Assembly (NCBI GenBank): GCA_025354615.1
Contig: JANXMO010000112.1
Span: 1 to 6,785, forward strand
Reading direction: 5' to 3'
DNA: 6,785 nt
Source: Burkholderiales bacterium
GTDB taxonomy: Bacteria > Pseudomonadota > Gammaproteobacteria > Burkholderiales > Burkholderiaceae_C
In this document: positions 771-6,785 of the stretch, one piece after another
Numbering within the stretch: position 1 is the first letter of the stretch
Layout of the letters: every line of letters starts with the position of its first letter
Program-made: the position numbers and the translations under genes
Notes under the pieces: generated by a model
Databases searched by the model: none
Seen by the model: only the letters and a program-made list of their open reading frames with translations
What the model was told of the DNA's origin: nothing

Positions 771-1052
771 TCAAGCCAAGCCTTTGATGGCTTCGCCGAT
801 CGCCTTGAACAGCTTGGCCAGCGCCTCGCTGATTTTGGTGATCAGCTGGATGATGCCCATTTCCATTTGGAATTTCATTTGCGCAGCAGCGGTCTGCCTG
901 ATCTGCTTCATCATGGATTCTGTGGAATTTTCCGCGTCGTTCGTTGCACCCTGACTGCCTTTAATGGCATCGTCCTGAAATTGGTGTTGAGGGTCCGTCC
1001 TTGGCATAGATGTGGTGGAAGGCATGCCGTAGTTGCTGGAGGTGAAAGACAT
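771..1052 (-). CDS. Small T3SS protein, needle/pilin-like candidate (93 aa)
   Basis: The size and build fit an exported filament subunit. A polar, Ser/Thr/Gln/Asp-rich N-terminus (1-45) without a Sec signal precedes one long amphipathic helix (about 41-91) with Met/Ile/Leu spaced along it, ending in Gly-Leu-Ala. T3SS needles, pilins and inner-rod proteins are typically about 70-130 residues with a C-terminal helix of this kind. The gene follows sctD, the same general place as the needle gene in Ysc-type operons. It has the best ribosome site of the leftward operon (AGGAG, 8 nt before ATG), fitting a subunit needed in many copies. Against a classical SctF, the Pro-containing turn between two helices is not apparent. 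It could also be an inner-rod, HrpA/HrpE-like pilin or harpin-like protein. The CDS is secure; the role is inferred. Confidence 0.8.
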   Translation of the reverse strand: MSFTSSNYGMPSTTSMPRTDPQHQFQDDAIKGSQGATNDAENSTESMMKQIRQTAAAQMKFQMEMGIIQLITKISEALAKLFKAIGEAIKGLA

Positions 1053-1133: not shown

Positions 1134-1229
1134 TTAAGGACCGGCGGCAAGTTTCATCGTGCGCACGCGTTGGCCCGGTTTGTAATGACTGCAGGTCAAG
1201 CGTTTCGTCAAAGGCAGCAGCACTTTCAT
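1134..1229 (-). CDS. Possible 31-residue basic small protein overlapping the sctD stop
   Basis: An ATG at 1229 overlaps the sctD TGA as ATGA, and a GAGG ribosome site (AGAGG on the minus strand) lies 6 nt upstream within the end of sctD. The frame runs to TAA at 1134-1136. The product is strongly basic, with seven Lys/Arg and no acidic residues, and has one cysteine (residue 13) and no clear membrane segment. I recognise no family. In Ysc-type operons a small gene (sctE) sits between sctD and the needle gene, but those proteins are about twice as long, so the positional analogy is weak. It may be a real small component, a coupling ORF, or a decayed remnant. The ribosome site and overlap are the only support. 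Confidence 0.35.
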   Translation of the reverse strand: MKVLLPLTKRLTCSHYKPGQRVRTMKLAAGP

Positions 1230-2371
1230 TCGACACCTCTCGGTTCTTGAGCGAAAGCCGTCGTTGACGACGTCAGCCGCAAAACCTGGGCAGGGGCCAC
1301 TGGCAGTGCTGCAGACGTTTGCCGGGTACTTGGTGGAAGCGGCACGTCGTCATTGATCATCAACACCTTGCGCCCGTCACGCGTTTGCACGATCTGGACA
1401 CCGGGTGCGGCGTAGACCGCGCCGACCAGCTCTTTGCTGGTCGGCGTTGTCGCCTGAACGTCGACTTCAATTCGCTTGACCAGCGGCGCCAGGTCGGACG
1501 CCACGCGTGCCACGGCGGCGCGCAGATGCGGGGCATCGACCGTGTGGCCGCTGAGCACGAACACACCATCGCTGCGGCGGCGCGCCTGGATGTCGTCAAT
1601 CCCCAGCGACTCGACGATTTGGCGCGAGATGTCGTCAGCAGACGCATATTTGCGCCGCACGTGCGTGTCGTCGAAGTGGCGCAATGCGGTGTTCAGCGTG
1701 CGCAGCGCCACCGCGTCGTCAACAATGCCTTCGACCACCAGTTCTTTCCCCGCGCTGCGCAGCGTGACGCCGCGAACCTTCGATTCCTGCAAGGCGCGTT
1801 CAATCTGCTGCGCCAGCGGCGGGGCCGGCTGTACTTTGCCATTGGCACCTGAAACGATGAACACCAGGCCGCCCAGCAACAACGAGGCTGCACCGCCCGC
1901 CCAGGCGGCCATGCGCCGCCGCCCTTGCTGGCGGGCGGGTTCGCCAGCCGTTTCGCCGTCCGCCGTGTGGCTTTGCGCCATCGTGTCGGCGGCCGCATCC
2001 GTGGGGTCTCCTCCCAGCACGTTCTGGAGCGCTTCCACTGCGGCCGTGACCGGGCGCAGCAGCAATTCGAGCAAAGCCATGTCGGACGGCCAGGCCACGT
2101 TGTCAGGGCCGATGCACAGTGCGACATCGCCGAAGCGCCGGGGCACGAAGTCGAGCAGGGACTGCGCTGCTGCGCTCCCGTTGCCCTCGTCCTGCATGCT
2201 GGCCATCAGTATGTTCACGGTGTCCTCGTTTACTTCAATGACGATCGACTCGCCTTGCCAGTCGATGATTTCGACATCGGCGTCAGCCTCGGCGCCAATC
2301 ACATAACGTGCTGATGTCAAAGGTAACTGCACGCCAGCATGGACACCAGTGAGAATGCGAAGAAGTTTCAT
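1226..2371 (-). CDS. sctD: T3SS inner-membrane ring protein SctD (YscD/HrpD5-type)
   Basis: SctD forms the outer ring of the inner-membrane base of the injectisome, linking cytoplasmic components to the periplasmic ring and the secretin. The 381-residue protein has the family architecture. An FHA-like cytoplasmic domain (about 1-98) opens with a Leu-Arg-Ile-Leu-Thr-Gly-Val-His-Ala-Gly strand pattern. A linker follows (100-150), then Arg151-Arg153 and one transmembrane helix (about 154-175). A periplasmic region then carries repeated alpha/beta ring-building (BON-like) modules at about 182-237, 243-305 and 310-345, with a Pro/Ala/Thr-rich tail. The length is within the usual range. The ATG lies 2 bases after the sctC stop with no obvious ribosome site, so translation is probably coupled to sctC. 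Identification rests on architecture plus the adjacent secretin. Confidence 0.88.
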   Translation of the reverse strand: MKLLRILTGVHAGVQLPLTSARYVIGAEADADVEIIDWQGESIVIEVNEDTVNILMASMQDEGNGSAAAQSLLDFVPRRFGDVALCIGPDNVAWPSDMALLELLLRPVTAAVEALQNVLGGDPTDAAADTMAQSHTADGETAGEPARQQGRRRMAAWAGGAASLLLGGLVFIVSGANGKVQPAPPLAQQIERALQESKVRGVTLRSAGKELVVEGIVDDAVALRTLNTALRHFDDTHVRRKYASADDISRQIVESLGIDDIQARRRSDGVFVLSGHTVDAPHLRAAVARVASDLAPLVKRIEVDVQATTPTSKELVGAVYAAPGVQIVQTRDGRKVLMINDDVPLPPSTRQTSAALPVAPAQVLRLTSSTTAFAQEPRGVE

Positions 2372-2373
2372 GA

Positions 2374-4389
2374 TCAGCGAACACAGGTGGAAGAAAAAGC
2401 GGTTGTCAGGTCATTTCCAGCGCTTTGGAAGCCGCAGCGAACAGCCGGAGTCGATGTGTTGAGTCCGGAATTCATGTCAATGTTGAGTGCCAGGCGCGAC
2501 GCATTGACTGCCGGCCGTGCAGCCATAGGCGCTGGCTCAGCAGTGGGCGCCGGTGCCGGCATGCTGGCGGCAATCAACCGCGGAGTGATCAGGAACATGC
2601 GCTCCGAGCGGGTCTTTTCCTGGCTGTTTGACCTGAACAGGCCGCCGACATAAGGCAGGCTGGCCAGACCCGGTACGCCGCTGCGCTGAACGCTTTCCGA
2701 TTCAACCGTGATGCCGGCAATCAGCAGGCTTTCGCCTTCACCCACGTAGGCCTCGGTTTGAATCTGTGTCTTCTTGACCACCGGCACCTGGTCGACCGTG
2801 CCAGCCTCGAAGCTGCCGTCTTCAATGTAGATCGTCAGCTTGATTTGGCGCACACCGTTGACCATGACCGGCTGCGGCGTCATGCGGAGCAAGGTGCCTG
2901 CTTCGACCTGGAACAAATTGGCTTCCAGGTTGCCCGACACGCGTACGCTGACAACGCGCTTTTCCTTCATCATCGCCGCCCGGTTGGCGACACCCAGCAG
3001 CTTGGGCTTGGAAACCACACGCGCCCGGCCCATGCCCTCCAGCGCCTGCAATTGAACCGAAAAGCTGGCGCCGGCGTTGGCCAGTAGCGTACCGATACGG
3101 AACGGCGCCAGGCCACTGGCGGCACCGGCAAGTGAAGGGCTGGTGACGCCCGTCGTCAGCCGGTTGGTCTGCAGCGACCAGTCAACGCCCAATTGGTCCA
3201 GGCTGCCGGCGGAAACATCGACGATCATGGCTTCGAGCTCCACCAGCTGCGGCCGCTGGTCCAGCTGCTGGATCAGCGAAGCGTATTCGGCCATGCGTGT
3301 CTTTTTCGCGTGAACGATCACGCTGTTGGTGCCGATATCAGCTTCAAAGCTGGCTTCGTCTTCACGGGTGTCGACAGGGCTGTGCAGGCCGCGTCCGCCT
3401 GGCGCGCCACCTGCTGCACCCGTACCGGCAGCGGCATCACCTTTGGTGGTGGCATCTGGCAGCAGCTTGTCAGAGCCAGTGGTGGCATACATCGCTTTGA
3501 GCTTGCCGGCCAGCTGCCCGCTCATGCTGGGGCCTTTCGCCGCACCTTCCAGCTTGTTGGCTGGGGTGCCGCTGTATAGCGAGCGCAATGTTGTCACCAT
3601 ACCGGCGACAGTGCTTTCGCCGTATACCTGGTCACCGGCGGAAGCAAAGCGCAATGGAAATACCTGCGTCAGCGCGGCATTCGATTCAATCGCCGAAGCG
3701 TCCAACGCCTCGATCGCCATGGCCAGCAGCTCGACGTGCCGTGGCGGGCCGTACACCAGCAACACGTTATCGACCGCGCTGTAGCGCACGGGATAGCGCT
3801 GGTCGCCAAGCGCCAGCGATTTCAGCAGCTGGCTGACGTTGGCCCGTGTATAGCCGACGAGCTTGAACATGCGGCTTTGAATGGCTTTGGCCGGGTAGAA
3901 ATAAAGCGCCGAGCCATCGTCATACCAAATCAGCGAGTAAGCGGTGGCGATGGCGTTGAGGAATTTGGCCGGCGAGTGGTCAAAATTGCCGGTCACCGAG
4001 CCATCGACGCCATCGGCAATCACGGCTGGCATACCGCGGCTGGAAGCGAAATCCTGCAGTACTTCCGACAGCCGTTTGCCTTCTGCGTGGTAGACGAAAT
4101 GGGGGCCGCTCATGGCCGAGTTGCGGGGCAGCACCGGGGCGTCAATGACCATGGTTTCACGGACATCGCCTTGTTCGTTGTTATTTGCTTTTACATGACG
4201 GGCTGCTGCCACGTGCCGAACCTTCGTTGCTTTCGCCAACGGCGCAGGAGTGTCTACCGCAGTGCCTGCCAGCGATGCATCCAATGCCATCTGATAAGCA
4301 TTTGTGGCCGCAGGCTGCATTGCGAAAGCCAGGGCGCAGCCCATGCGCAGTGCATACACAAGGGACTTGGCGTGCAACGAATTTGGCAT
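2374..4389 (-). CDS. sctC: T3SS outer-membrane secretin SctC (HrcC/YscC family)
   Basis: SctC is the outer-membrane ring through which the needle passes. With ATG at 4389 the protein is 671 residues. It has a Sec signal peptide (1-31, cut after Ala-Thr-Asn-Ala), a basic/low-complexity stretch (32-95), N0 (about 97-171), N1 (174-231), N3 (241-381) with a Gly/Ala-rich insert (311-333), and the secretin barrel (383-610). The hallmark near 572-605, VPGLASLPYVGGLF followed by FLITPRL, is clear. A Pro/Ala-rich tail of about 65 residues (Cys652, Cys669) may bind a pilotin. An in-frame TTG at 4446 overlaps the preceding stop, but it would bury the signal peptide behind 19 residues, so I prefer the ATG, which has a GGAA-like site. 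The family call is secure; the exact start is less so. Confidence 0.95.
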   Translation of the reverse strand: MPNSLHAKSLVYALRMGCALAFAMQPAATNAYQMALDASLAGTAVDTPAPLAKATKVRHVAAARHVKANNNEQGDVRETMVIDAPVLPRNSAMSGPHFVYHAEGKRLSEVLQDFASSRGMPAVIADGVDGSVTGNFDHSPAKFLNAIATAYSLIWYDDGSALYFYPAKAIQSRMFKLVGYTRANVSQLLKSLALGDQRYPVRYSAVDNVLLVYGPPRHVELLAMAIEALDASAIESNAALTQVFPLRFASAGDQVYGESTVAGMVTTLRSLYSGTPANKLEGAAKGPSMSGQLAGKLKAMYATTGSDKLLPDATTKGDAAAGTGAAGGAPGGRGLHSPVDTREDEASFEADIGTNSVIVHAKKTRMAEYASLIQQLDQRPQLVELEAMIVDVSAGSLDQLGVDWSLQTNRLTTGVTSPSLAGAASGLAPFRIGTLLANAGASFSVQLQALEGMGRARVVSKPKLLGVANRAAMMKEKRVVSVRVSGNLEANLFQVEAGTLLRMTPQPVMVNGVRQIKLTIYIEDGSFEAGTVDQVPVVKKTQIQTEAYVGEGESLLIAGITVESESVQRSGVPGLASLPYVGGLFRSNSQEKTRSERMFLITPRLIAASMPAPAPTAEPAPMAARPAVNASRLALNIDMNSGLNTSTPAVRCGFQSAGNDLTTAFSSTCVR

Positions 4390-4442: not shown

Positions 4443-4661
4443 TCAATCAGCGTCGTCTGGGTCTATGTCGTCTTCATCTTCTTCAGGGTGAACGAATTTT
4501 TCGAGCGCTTCAGTGGCAAACCCTTGGCCGGTTTGAAACTGCTGAAAAATTTGCTGGCGAAGGGCCGCCATGATTTCTTTGTCTTGGTCAGACGAAGGGT
4601 TTGTGGTGTCGCCACCGGTGTAAGACGGGGCACTGGGGCCACCAACTGATGGAATGGGCAT
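4443..4661 (-). CDS. Small acidic-tailed protein leading the secretin operon (72 aa)
   Basis: This is the first gene of the leftward operon, 76 bases downstream of an hrpII/PIP-type box. The family is not recognised. Residues 1-25 are rich in Ser, Thr, Pro and Gly, like many T3SS export signals. Residues 25-56 form a likely amphipathic Gln-rich helix. Ten of the last 13 residues (60-72) are Asp or Glu. There is no Sec signal. The ribosome site AAGGA, about 8 nt before the ATG, supports the start. In Xanthomonas the harpin gene hpa1 lies near hrcC behind a PIP box, so a small secreted substrate is one possibility; the acidic tail could instead suit a chaperone or a partner for a basic protein. 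Both are inference. Confidence 0.75.
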   Translation of the reverse strand: MPIPSVGGPSAPSYTGGDTTNPSSDQDKEIMAALRQQIFQQFQTGQGFATEALEKFVHPEEDEDDIDPDDAD

Positions 4662-4700
4662 GTTGATTTCCTTGAATGAAGAGTGGAAGGAACAGGGTGA

Positions 4701-4706
4701 AGGTTG
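4701..4706 (-). promoter_or_regulatory. -10-like hexamer for the secretin operon
   Basis: CAACCT on the minus strand fits the YANNNT pattern described downstream of PIP boxes. It lies 31 bases beyond the box at 4738-4762, within the usual 30-32. The pattern is degenerate, so the spacing is the main support. Confidence 0.45.
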
Positions 4707-4737
4707 CTCTGTTTAGCGCTTTGTGCAAACGCCTGGT

Positions 4738-4762
4738 GCGAACCTTTGTCGCGGGAAACGAA
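4738..4762 (-). promoter_or_regulatory. hrpII/PIP-type box driving the secretin operon
   Basis: On the minus strand this reads TTCGT-N15-TTCGC, an exact match to the hrpII consensus TTCG-N16-TTCG (HrpB of Ralstonia) and one base off the strict PIP box TTCGC-N15-TTCGC (HrpX of Xanthomonas). It ends 76 bases before the ATG of the 72-residue gene. Binding by an AraC-type activator is inferred from the consensus; no regulator gene is in the window. Confidence 0.75.
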
Positions 4763-4812
4763 GTCAGCAAGGCCTGCTGAAAACCCTGAGCATTGAAAAA
4801 GCGTGCATTTGC

Positions 4813-4837
4813 TTCGCTATCGTGGAAAACACTTCGT
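4813..4837 (+). promoter_or_regulatory. hrpII/PIP-type box driving the helical-protein/transglycosylase operon
   Basis: The plus strand reads TTCGC-N15-TTCGT, an exact TTCG-N16-TTCG hrpII element and one base from a perfect PIP box. It ends 74 bases before the ATG at 4912, nearly mirroring the box on the other strand. Its two half-sites occur in the reverse order to those of the partner box. Confidence 0.75.
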
Positions 4838-4868
4838 ATTGCCATGCATGCCGCTTGACGAAGTGGTG

Positions 4869-4874
4869 TTGAAT
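4869..4874 (+). promoter_or_regulatory. -10-like hexamer for the transglycosylase operon
   Basis: TTGAAT lies 31 bases after the box at 4813-4837. It matches TATAAT at four of six positions but lacks the A expected at position 2, so it is a weaker candidate than the minus-strand one. Confidence 0.35.
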
Positions 4875-4911
4875 CCAGTCTTCAATCAACTCACCTGTTC
4901 AGGAGGACTGG

Positions 4912-5376
4912 ATGTCACAAGCCATGAATTCAGAAGCGTTCAGTGCCACAGCGGGCCTGATGGGCTCGGTCGAAGCAATGGGAATGGCCGCAGCGCAGCA
5001 GATTGCTGCTTTCAACACGACTGTTCAGCGCCTGCAAGCACTGGTGCCGCGTGTCACACAAGCCGAGCACCTTGAGTGGGTTCAAGAAGTTTCAGTTGCT
5101 GTGCAACAGGTTCATATGCACCTGTTCGCCACCGTGGCTGACACACCCGCAACGCCGGGCATTGAAGATGCTGTGGAAGAAGTGGCGTCAGATGCCTCCA
5201 GCATCGAAGCTTCGCTGCGTGGTTTAGCCGAATTGATTCAGCTCAGCCAGATGCGCAGCAAGGAAGTTGATTCACTGCTGACGACTTCCGCCGCGCGGTT
5301 GGATGCGATTGAGGCGGCGCTCAATGGCACAGCCGAGGTCGAAGCATGCGTCGCCGAGCCTTCCAACGCTGCCTGA
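4912..5376 (+). CDS. Uncharacterised helical protein co-transcribed with a T3SS lytic transglycosylase (154 aa)
   Basis: The start is strong: AGGAGG sits 5 bases before the ATG. No family is recognised. The protein is almost wholly helical by eye, with segments at about 12-50, 51-75 and 84-140. It has an Ala/Met/Gln-rich N-terminal third, an acidic middle (Glu85, Asp86, Glu89, Glu90), and one cysteine (146) near the end. No signal peptide or membrane segment is present, so it is cytoplasmic or exported by the T3SS itself. It is first in an operon behind an hrpII-type box and overlaps the transglycosylase gene by 31 bases. Options are an exported T3SS protein, a secretion chaperone, or an unrelated helical protein (a phasin-like look was considered but is not supported). 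The gene call is good; the role is unknown. Confidence 0.85.
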   Translation: MSQAMNSEAFSATAGLMGSVEAMGMAAAQQIAAFNTTVQRLQALVPRVTQAEHLEWVQEVSVAVQQVHMHLFATVADTPATPGIEDAVEEVASDASSIEASLRGLAELIQLSQMRSKEVDSLLTTSAARLDAIEAALNGTAEVEACVAEPSNAA

Positions 5377-6080
5377 TTGGTGCGGTTAGCTGGGCAGCAT
5401 GCGCTGCCGCAACCGCGCATTACGAATGTCGGATGGTTGACGGCACTGTCATCAGCTCGGTTCAAGACCTCTCACAAGGCTCGTTGCAAGCCGTGCAAGT
5501 GTGTACACCAGTGGCCACGCAGGTGGCTATCACCGCACCTTTTGACGCCGTAAGCGCCAACGGCTCATCGCCTTTCAAAGCGGCATGGCCCGAAACGTTC
5601 GGCATCCGCATCATCGTGCGCCCGAACTGGCGCAACCCTACGATTGCCGCCAAGCTGTCTTCCGAAGCGGAACCGTCCGCGGCTTATCAGGAGCTGATCG
5701 AGCAAGCTGCCAGCCGCCATGGTGTCGACCCGTTGTTGGTGCGGGCCATGATGGCCGTTGAATCAGCCGGACAACGGGCTGCCGTTTCCCCCAAAGGCGC
5801 ACGTGGCTTGATGCAAATTATGCCCGCCACCGGCGCTCGCTTCGGCGTTGCCGATGCCTCCGAGTTGTTCAACCCTGCAGTAAATATCGATGTCGGCGTG
5901 CGTTATTTGCGTACGTTACAAAACCTTTTTCCTGCTCGTTTTGATCTTGTCGTGGCGGCTTATAACGCCGGCGAATCGGCCGTTCTGCGTGCAGGTGGCA
6001 ATGTGCCGGCTTATGAAGAAACAAAAGCTTATGTGGTGAAAGTATTGGGCCGGTATGAAACGCTGTTGGCTCAACGCTGA
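5346..6080 (+). CDS. Secreted lytic transglycosylase, T3SS-associated (Hpa2/IpgF-like role)
   Basis: Lytic transglycosylases cleave peptidoglycan between MurNAc and GlcNAc; T3SS-linked ones (IpgF, IagB, EtgA, Hpa2) open the wall for the apparatus. The 244-residue protein has a Sec signal peptide (1-24, after which His-Tyr-Glu-Cys follows). An N-terminal region with Cys28 and Cys53 (possible disulfide) comes next, then a Goose-lysozyme-like SLT domain (about 112-240). Catalytic Glu139 lies in Ala-Val-Glu-Ser-Ala-Gly; GLMQIMP (154-160) and AYNAGE (205-210) are the other family motifs, so it looks active. The roughly 85-residue region between signal and SLT domain makes it longer than IpgF-type enzymes. 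GAGG lies 7 bases before the ATG, within the 154-residue gene. A housekeeping enzyme is possible, but the shared hrpII-type promoter argues for a T3SS role. Confidence 0.92.
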   Translation: MRRRAFQRCLIGAVSWAACAAATAHYECRMVDGTVISSVQDLSQGSLQAVQVCTPVATQVAITAPFDAVSANGSSPFKAAWPETFGIRIIVRPNWRNPTIAAKLSSEAEPSAAYQELIEQAASRHGVDPLLVRAMMAVESAGQRAAVSPKGARGLMQIMPATGARFGVADASELFNPAVNIDVGVRYLRTLQNLFPARFDLVVAAYNAGESAVLRAGGNVPAYEETKAYVVKVLGRYETLLAQR

Positions 6081-6102
6081 CCCTCGCTTAGAAAAGAAGC
6101 CC

Positions 6103-6129
6103 AAAAAAAAGCCGCCCGAAGGCGGCTTT
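6103..6129. terminator. Bidirectional rho-independent terminator between transglycosylase and porin genes
   Basis: GCCGCC (6111-6116) and GGCGGC (6121-6126) form a GC-rich stem with a CGAA loop, extended by AAA/TTT pairs. The run of eight A at 6103-6110 becomes a U-tract on the minus strand, so it should be strong for the porin. On the plus strand only a short TTTCT follows, making it weaker for the transglycosylase operon. Confidence 0.85.
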
Positions 6130-6147: not shown

Positions 6148-6785
6148 TTAAAACGAGTGGCGAACGCCAAAGTTATAACCGGTCGATGTGGTGTTCAAAG
6201 CACTGTTGGTGTTGAGCGCTGCACCAACGGTGAAGTTGGCAAAATTCGAGTTAGAAACCCGACCAGCCGTGCCATAAACAGCAGTGCGCTTGGACAAGTT
6301 GTAGATGTATTCCAAAGAATACAAATTGGCTTTGCCATTGTTGAACGCCGTTCCAACAGCGCCGCCAGTAATCTTAGAACGTGCGTAAGAAGCACGGAAT
6401 TCACCTGCGCCAACCGGGGCAGCCGCACTAATTTCCCACAGATTCTGTTTGATGGAACCAAACTTGTTTTGATCCCACAAACCAAACAACTTCACCACGC
6501 TGAAGTCATACGAGGCACCAACGTTGGCCACCTTGAAATCAGTGCTGGTATTTGCCGTCTTGGTCTGACCATATGCAACTGCGGCATTGAACGGGCCTGT
6601 GGCATAACCCAAACGGCCACCTGCATATTTCTGGCCAGGAACACCTTCACCAGCAGCAGCCGTCAGCTGACCGTAGACGCCGCCCAAATCGCCAGGCAGG
6701 AAATACGATGCAACGTTGTTGTCACGCAGGCCAGTAAGAGCGCCGCTATTCAACGCGCTGAACAAGTTGTAACCTTGACCCAGGC
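6148..6785 (-). CDS. General outer-membrane porin, OmpC-like Burkholderiales type, N-terminally truncated by window edge
   Basis: This is the C-terminal 212 residues of a general diffusion porin, a trimeric beta-barrel passing small hydrophilic solutes across the outer membrane. Alternating hydrophobic/polar strands are evident, for example Ala-Gly-Gly-Arg-Leu-Gly-Tyr-Ala and Ala-Ser-Tyr-Asp-Phe-Ser. The protein ends in Gly-Val-Arg-His-Ser-Phe, with the terminal Phe needed for recognition by the Bam machinery. The frame is open to the window edge: the first in-frame start-like codon (TTG at 6765) is internal, with Leu-Gly-Gln-Gly-Tyr-Asn before it. Family members are usually about 330-380 residues, so roughly 40% is missing. 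It converges on the T3SS operon with a shared terminator and is probably a chromosomal neighbour rather than a T3SS gene. Confidence 0.9.
   Translation of the reverse strand, partial: LGQGYNLFSALNSGALTGLRDNNVASYFLPGDLGGVYGQLTAAAGEGVPGQKYAGGRLGYATGPFNAAVAYGQTKTANTSTDFKVANVGASYDFSVVKLFGLWDQNKFGSIKQNLWEISAAAPVGAGEFRASYARSKITGGAVGTAFNNGKANLYSLEYIYNLSKRTAVYGTAGRVSNSNFANFTVGAALNTNSALNTTSTGYNFGVRHSF

Follow-up and report, generated by a model that had tools for sequence, protein, structure and literature searches.

A putative HrpX-type regulon with three promoters at a type III secretion locus of an uncultured Burkholderiales bacterium, one promoter probably lying within sctD codons

The window, by which we mean the whole stretch of 6,785 nucleotides analysed here, carries a segment of a type III secretion system (T3SS). 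On the minus strand lie a 72-aa ORF (4443..4661, ATG at 4661), which would be the first gene of the sctC-side operon, the gene for the T3SS secretin, sctC (2374..4389, a 690-aa ORF that scores 382 bits against TIGR02516, above the cut-off of 238.45), a HrpD5-like gene for the inner ring subunit, sctD (1226..2371, ATG at 2371), and a 93-aa small pilin-like ORF (771..1052), the first gene after sctD in the window, whose suggested role follows from size and position. The sctD product aligns near full length to NF041525, at 246 bits against a curated cut-off of 300 that is passed by 6 of 399 family genomes, and reaches 47 bits against a cut-off of 86 for TIGR02500; we therefore treat the gene at 1226..2371 as a putative SctD/HrpD5 gene, assigned below both cut-offs by its alignment and its position. 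The plus strand carries a 154-aa ORF of unassigned family (4912..5376, ATG at 4912), presumably the first gene of the divergent operon, and a lytic transglycosylase gene (5346..6080; SLT domain, PF01464, E 1.8e-26, 92 bits). Given its SLT domain and its position at the hrcC end of the cluster, in divergent orientation to sctC, the transglycosylase is a candidate HpaH-like enzyme.

The 250 bases between the two divergent start codons (4662-4911) contain two exact TTCG-N16-TTCG boxes that face outward, as the preliminary description had claimed. One box points toward the sctC operon (4739-4762, minus strand; next base C, so that it fits TTCGB-N15-TTCGB too) and the other toward the transglycosylase operon (4813-4836, plus strand; next base T). 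The positions first given for the pair needed small corrections: together the boxes span 4739-4836, not 4738-4837, they lie 77 and 75 bases from the ATG codons at 4661 and 4912, not 76 and 74, and on both sides the -10-like hexamer follows at 32 bases rather than 31. Downstream of a PIP or hrpII box, a YANNNT -10 hexamer is expected at a distance of about 30-32 bases; an excerpt of PMC5483457 speaks of a "properly spaced -10 motif". Of the hexamers that had been proposed for the two sides, CAACCT (4701-4706, minus strand), 32 bases past the sctC-side box, fits YANNNT, whereas TTGAAT (4869-4874, plus strand), 32 bases past the divergent box, mismatches at the second position and is at best a weak -10.

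A third TTCG-N16-TTCG box, overlooked by the preliminary description, spans the start codon of sctD (2358-2381, minus strand). It starts 10 bases 5' of the ATG at 2371 and ends in codon 5, and its hexamer, TACCTT (2320-2325, minus strand), lies 32 bases on, within sctD codons 16-18 (TTA CCT TTG), and fits YANNNT. All three boxes in the window match both the hrpII form, TTCG-N16-TTCG, and the PIP form, TTCGB-N15-TTCGB. In 200 dinucleotide shuffles of the window the mean number of matches was 0.29, and three matches were reached in 1 of the 200.

A single HrpB/HrpX-type regulon had been predicted for the secretin and transglycosylase operons, and the genome does hold a HrpB/HrpX-like AraC-type regulator gene. 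Three HTH_18 proteins are encoded in the draft, on contigs C105, C283 and C386; that on C105 reads as an Ada-type repair protein. The C386 protein, at 492 aa, combines an N-terminal TPR_12 match (36 bits at residues 49-115) with an AraC-type HTH_18 match (62 bits at 395-473), both above the Pfam cut-offs; regulators of the HrpX/HrpB family are about 480-500 aa long. Its gene and an OmpR-type, HrpG-like gene are arranged tail to tail, and sctU and the N-terminal part of sctV lie 1-3 kb away. Among the 22 NCBIfam matches no model is named HrpX or HrpB. Relatives of the regulator, 41-43% identical, lie within sctC loci L140, L145 and L148 among the best 80 of 219 relatives' sctC loci, and HrpG-like homologs occur in 9 of these 80. 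On a Paraburkholderia plasmid, a 34% identical homolog sits between annotated sctT and sctC. The best plasmid match, a 38% homolog on a Variovorax paradoxus plasmid, was discarded as support, there being no annotated T3SS gene within 15 kb of it. Architecture and position, that is, TPR repeats with an AraC-type HTH and linkage to T3SS and HrpG-like genes, thus suggest that the C386 protein is HrpX/HrpB-like.

The draft assembly of this genome comprises 697 contigs with 2,804,475 bases in total and is 80.85% complete. We took 100 stretches from 100 of these contigs (639,718 bases including the window), 86 of them selected for their N16 sites and the remaining 14 without that criterion, called genes with a home-made simple codon model and scanned for spacers of 8 to 24 bases. 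The raw 8-base pattern was not enriched genome-wide, with 116 matches against 123 for the reversed pattern. Sites with a spacer of 16, in contrast, stood in promoter position (intergenic and at most 250 bases upstream of a called start) in 25 of 115 cases, compared with 19 of 515 when the remaining 16 spacers are pooled (Fisher p 2e-9), and were followed by YANNNT at 29-33 bases in 36 of 115 against 34 of 515 (Fisher p 1e-11). Since the contigs were picked for N16 sites, the number of N16 sites is inflated, but the fractions should not be. Among the spacers scanned, none but 16 showed enrichment both upstream of genes and in sites with a spaced -10. Promoter-placed sites numbered 0 to 5 for each of six other N16 words, and 5 of 39 for the reversed word. 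The signal is therefore in the placement of the sites and their spaced -10, not in the raw count: the expectation that a genome scan would reveal a regulon was borne out in that sites precede genes, with a -10 at about 31-32 bases, and failed in that their raw number does not exceed the control.

The genes behind these sites are varied. Downstream of boxes we collected 50 candidate ORFs (49 distinct) and scanned 30 against Pfam, not all of their boxes having a consensus -10. Nine of the 30 matched (GNAT, F-box, ankyrin, YopJ, two LRR, protein kinase, Cupin_8 and DUF3106/DUF5339), and the other 21 had no Pfam match at E 0.001. Type III effector sets typically consist of proteins with eukaryote-like domains and of orphans. 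By position and domain only, the F-box, YopJ-type, LRR and kinase genes behind boxes are candidates for secreted effectors; they lie at L035 3116-4678 (F-box), L047 2572-3609 (YopJ-type acetyltransferase), L053 8806-10101 and L094 1335-2399 (leucine-rich repeats) and L093 684-1859 (protein kinase). The core of the machine is spread over other contigs, with sctU and the N-terminal half of sctV on C386, after a box, the C-terminal half of sctV and sctQ on C124, and sctN on C521. On C386, a GNAT acetyltransferase gene (L034 7209-7847) stands between the box and sctU-sctV. Further back-to-back box pairs occur on C452, C535 and C521.

We then compared the locus with its relatives. A profile search of contigs with SctC alone found no relative; a profile search with a 23-sequence SctC alignment yielded relatives' sctC loci, of which we kept the best 80 of 219. 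Among these, 25 are close relatives with sctC about 50% identical or more (L136-L157, L161, L162, L168), and 23 of them have upstream DNA, L142 and L157 being cut off. The outward-facing pair, both boxes in place, is present in 23 of these 23, so that, within the best 80 of 219 loci, it has not been lost in close relatives that share the operons; a homolog of the divergent transglycosylase is present in 22 of the 23, the one in L156 being weak. The gap between the boxes in these 23 pairs ranges from 3 to 199 bases, and flanking genes and N16 letters differ. In the next tier, at 42-44% identity in sctC, L160 has both boxes, L158 one and L159 none within 1 kb; among the 52 more distant of the 80 loci (49 with at least 700 bases upstream) the outward pair is absent, and any box occurs in 4. 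In the 24 loci read in detail, the sctC-side box is followed by TANNNT at exactly 32 bases in all 24, and the divergent box by YANNNT at 31-32 in 11. Several relatives have non-consensus hexamers on the divergent side, either TGCAAT/TGGAAT (Acidovorax type), resembling the window's TTGAAT, or GACACT nearby. The divergent box is followed by A in 9 of the 24 (L147, L150-L155, L161 and L168; Acidovorax, Paracidovorax and Rhizobacter). Thus the divergent box of Acidovorax-type loci fits the hrpII form rather than the strict PIP form, and a TTCGB search would miss it.

The third box is conserved as well. Among the best 80 of 219 loci, it stands at the same register, -10 from the ATG, in 25 of 28 relatives, with L149, L158 and L160 as exceptions. 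In six of the relatives (L137, L141, L152, L153, L155, L161) it was the box itself that served to place the start, with the MK-LR translation as a check; where the start was placed by alignment alone, the box is present in 19 of 21 (again among the best 80 of 219). TANNNT follows at exactly 32 bases in 26 of 26 third-box sequences, the window and 25 relatives. A start-box pattern matched in 13 of 399 family genomes, and its reversed form in none; 10 of the 13 matches are in sctD (own genome included), all 10 with TANNNT at 32 bases, and the other 3 have none. An HMM search of the same 399 genomes, which are partly of the same species as the sctC-locus set, found matches in 64, 17 of them strong HrpD5-type SctD proteins (at least 184 bits, with the next at 75). 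The third box is present in 14 of these 17 (own genome included), at -10 in 12 and at +8 in 2, and is followed by TANNNT at 32 in 13 of the 14; L253 has TGGATT. The two boxes at +8 (L252, L253) arise because SctD starts 6 residues earlier there: the box keeps to the Leu-Arg codons, not to the ATG. The three strong SctD genomes lacking a box are L244, L251 and L255, and since L244 and L255 share start letters with L149 and L160, these losses are not independent. Given the box's absence from L149, L158, L160, L244, L251 and L255, and the loss of the -10 in L253, the third box is not essential everywhere. Among 13 weaker SctD-like loci (L257-L269), some of whose matches begin inside the gene, there was no box within 100 bases of the tested place, and outside the genome itself a class-wide HrpD5 search of 369 genomes gave weak matches only, the best at 54.5 bits.

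We derived expected codon counts from the codon usage of sctC and sctD, ignoring relatedness, and so we attach no p-values to them. Codon 16, which encodes Leu, Ile or Val, is CTA, TTA, ATA or GTA and thus ends in TA in 26 of 26 sequences, against 0.12 expected; codon 18 is TTG in 26 of 26, against 1.50 expected; and codon 4 is CTT in 26 of 26, against 0.60 expected in a set that was itself picked with a pattern containing CTT. Over 330 columns of 29 aligned genes the excess codon rarity has a mean of 0.05 bits and a standard deviation of 0.57, and the four highest columns are codon 16 (6.88 bits), codon 4 (3.57), codon 18 (2.25) and codon 20 (2.09). In boxless L244, L251 and L255 codon 16 is TTG, CTG or GTT, none ending in TA, and in boxless L149 and L158 it does not end in TA either. 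L256 retains its hexamer, as TACATT, even though its codon 18 is TGG (Trp). Protein conservation fails to explain the pattern at codon 16, where the amino acid changes and the TA stays. Together, the conserved register, the spaced TANNNT and the codon constraint lead us to reject the idea that the third box is a chance match in coding sequence.

From the boxes, their spacing, the regulator gene and the conservation described above, we infer the following course of binding, activation, operon structure and transcription start. The window probably holds three promoters of one HrpX-type regulon, switched on together by the genome's own regulator, and the assignment of the boxes to a HrpX/HrpB-type regulon appears well supported at the level of sequence. 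The HrpX/HrpB-like AraC protein would bind all three boxes and activate the injection machine through three promoters simultaneously. From the outer two, the 72-aa-sctC-sctD operon and its divergent neighbour, the 154-aa-transglycosylase operon, would likely be transcribed in step, with ring assembly and the wall-cutting enzyme thus coinciding. The earlier prediction of one regulon for the secretin and transglycosylase operons is thus strengthened by the regulator gene, the conserved pair and the placement of sites. The third box would form a whole HrpX-type promoter inside coding sequence, with an operator that covers the sctD start along with codons 1-5, and a -10 within codons 16-18; we favour this reading, though less firmly than the regulon itself. 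The transcript from this promoter would start near sctD codon 20 and could therefore not encode whole SctD. More likely it provides the genes behind sctD with a separate HrpX-dependent message; in the relatives these are hrpD6 and small pilin-like genes, in the window the pilin-like 93-aa gene.

Gene order is consistent with this role. In 25 of 25 relatives with the third box (among the best 80 of 219 loci), sctD is followed by hrpD6 (about 87 aa) and a 137-aa gene, and in several of the loci read small pilin-like ORFs come next; in Roseateles-type relatives, homologs of the 93-aa ORF sit after sctD, hrpD6 and the 137-aa gene. The one relative's hrpD6 that was scanned has a weak match to NF041505. 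In the window's own genome, hrpD6 instead lies before sctN on C521 (L087 5474-5740, minus strand), with its own box before it at 5886-5909 (minus strand), back to back with the box (6086-6109, plus strand) of a HrpB1-like gene (6256-6648, plus strand); neither box of this pair has a consensus -10. The proposed main client of the third promoter is thus gone from behind sctD, yet the box remains. In this one case, even after moving away from sctD, hrpD6 has a box, in agreement with the notion that the one at sctD used to serve it. The relatives' 137-aa gene has no match in the window's own genome at E 1e-3. We considered the HrpB1-like ORF on C521 as its ortholog and do not claim it, the best HMM match being weak (E 0.0033, within the fetched part only).

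The third box could act in two other ways. First, it could be the promoter for a shorter SctD, initiated at an internal codon around 52-54. Such a product would lack half of the cytoplasmic domain, and ring assembly would be tuned by how much of it is made relative to full SctD. In-frame start codons do occur at 52-54 in the 10 sequences looked at, many behind purine-rich letters; these letters, however, can be explained as Glu and Gly codons, codons 48-54 show no excess codon constraint, and the aligned columns vary there, with ATG, GTG or TTG as the start codon, all of which makes a shorter SctD unlikely. Second, the box could be a binding site only, at which the regulator hinders polymerase arriving from the sctC promoter and so lowers sctD relative to sctC. 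Binding within a coding region that hinders elongation is documented for RhpR (in an excerpt of PMC9600179), but a mere site needs no TANNNT at exactly 32 bases, and it is this hexamer that holds the most constrained codon of the gene; we give this explanation even less weight.

The codons themselves could have another cause. Rare codons often occur near the starts of genes, and those at the sctD start might serve translation, through a slow ramp or weak mRNA structure, with the match to the box as a by-product. Some excess rarity is indeed found at codons 6, 17, 19 and 20 too. Rarity nevertheless peaks in the columns of the box and the hexamer, codon 16 switches between Leu, Ile and Val while keeping TA, L256 keeps TACATT with codon 18 as TGG, and the boxless L149, L158, L244, L251 and L255 have no TA at the end of codon 16; a purely translational origin is accordingly very improbable. 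Least credible of all is that the back-to-back boxes are functionless chance matches or relics of shared ancestry, since, although the 8-base pattern is not in excess genome-wide, the signal is specific to one spacer, is placed before genes and carries a spaced -10, and the pair persists in all 23 close relatives (among the best 80 of 219 loci) while gap, flanking genes and N16 letters vary. We thus retain the reading of three HrpX-type promoters, one of them within sctD codons.

Published systems can be set beside this reading. According to excerpts of PMC6913199, hrcC of Acidovorax citrulli M6 is HrpX-dependent, with a PIP box 76 bases before its start, and the box listed there for hrcC is letter for letter the orthologous sctC-side box of L152 and L150. 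Table 2 of the same paper lists the sctD-start box for an HrpX-regulated gene of A. citrulli, APS58_2329, at a printed distance of 7 bases; by the coordinates given, the distance from box to gene is 1007 bases, and from the box end to hrpD6 in L152 it is also 1007. The equal distances suggest that APS58_2329 is most likely hrpD6. HrpX-dependence of hrpD6 has thus most likely been seen in A. citrulli, in work that, in the excerpts of PMC6913199, does not single out the responsible promoter. Those excerpts contain no mention of the APS58_2329 box overlapping the start of the preceding gene or of a -10 in codons, and the letters of the divergent box were not found in the main text on the A. citrulli HrpX regulon (PMC6913199). 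In Ralstonia solanacearum, as quoted in an excerpt of PMC6913199, the hrpII box TTCG-N16-TTCG is read by the AraC-type HrpB, which controls hrcC; our locus shares with it the box and an AraC-type regulator. In Xanthomonas translucens, hrpX adjoins hrcC, an order called reminiscent of R. solanacearum (PMC5483457, excerpt), whereas the regulator gene here lies on another contig, beside sctU. X. translucens also has, at the hrcC end of its cluster, an HrpX-controlled two-gene operon, hpaT-hpaH (PMC5483457, excerpt). The divergent operon here likewise has two genes and ends in a predicted lytic transglycosylase, with HrpX control predicted; unlike hpaT-hpaH, it begins with a 154-aa ORF of no known family, and its box is paired back to back with that of sctC. 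A regulator site inside coding sequence is also a feature of internal cryptic promoters of bacterial transcription factors (PMC9600179, excerpt), but in our case both box and -10 are fixed in codons, in one register on the sense strand, across genera.

PIP and hrpII regulons themselves are known, and the novelty lies in the proposed dual-coding promoter at the start of sctD. We found no description of a start-codon or internal PIP box, or of such a system in Roseateles, in the open-licence literature searched. Work on the Xanthomonas hrpD and hrpE operons, reportedly by Weber et al. in 2007, could bear on this novelty. The analysis extends a HrpX/HrpB-type regulon to an uncultured genome and finds the predicted three-promoter layout conserved in Roseateles, Aquabacterium, Hydrogenophaga, Methylibium and Acidovorax-type loci. 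The start-codon box accounts for the odd row in the published A. citrulli table and suggests that a core machine gene can harbour a fixed promoter belonging to a virulence-type regulon. If our reading is correct, the genes distal to sctD (hrpD6 and the pilin-like genes) would be regulated as a unit of their own within the secretin-ring operon, and the core of a secretion machine would contain a dual-coding promoter held by rare codons across many genera. The start-codon box in these loci escapes any search limited to intergenic DNA, as does the divergent box of Acidovorax-type loci any search limited to strict TTCGB.

Several smaller features of these loci were seen along the way. On C535 (L037), the back-to-back boxes (2062-2085, minus strand, and 2153-2176, plus strand), both with TANNNT at 32 bases, separate the gene for a 1072-aa ankyrin-repeat protein from a 630-aa open ORF with no Pfam match. 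The sctD start of L149 and L244 has what looks like a decayed box, with TTCA at -10, CTTCG kept and the -10 gone. At the place of the 72-aa ORF, judged by position only, several Roseateles-type relatives have ORFs of 53-89 aa, whereas in several Acidovorax-type loci sctC itself follows about 70-76 bases after the box. For the 154-aa ORF, tblastn gave no match among the relatives' loci at E 0.01; judged by eye, a small protein resembling it is encoded at the same place in L140, L145, L148 and L162. In the Acidovorax-type loci L147 and L152 it is replaced by an ORF of 504-536 aa, methyltransferase-like by eye, and the transglycosylase gene comes next.
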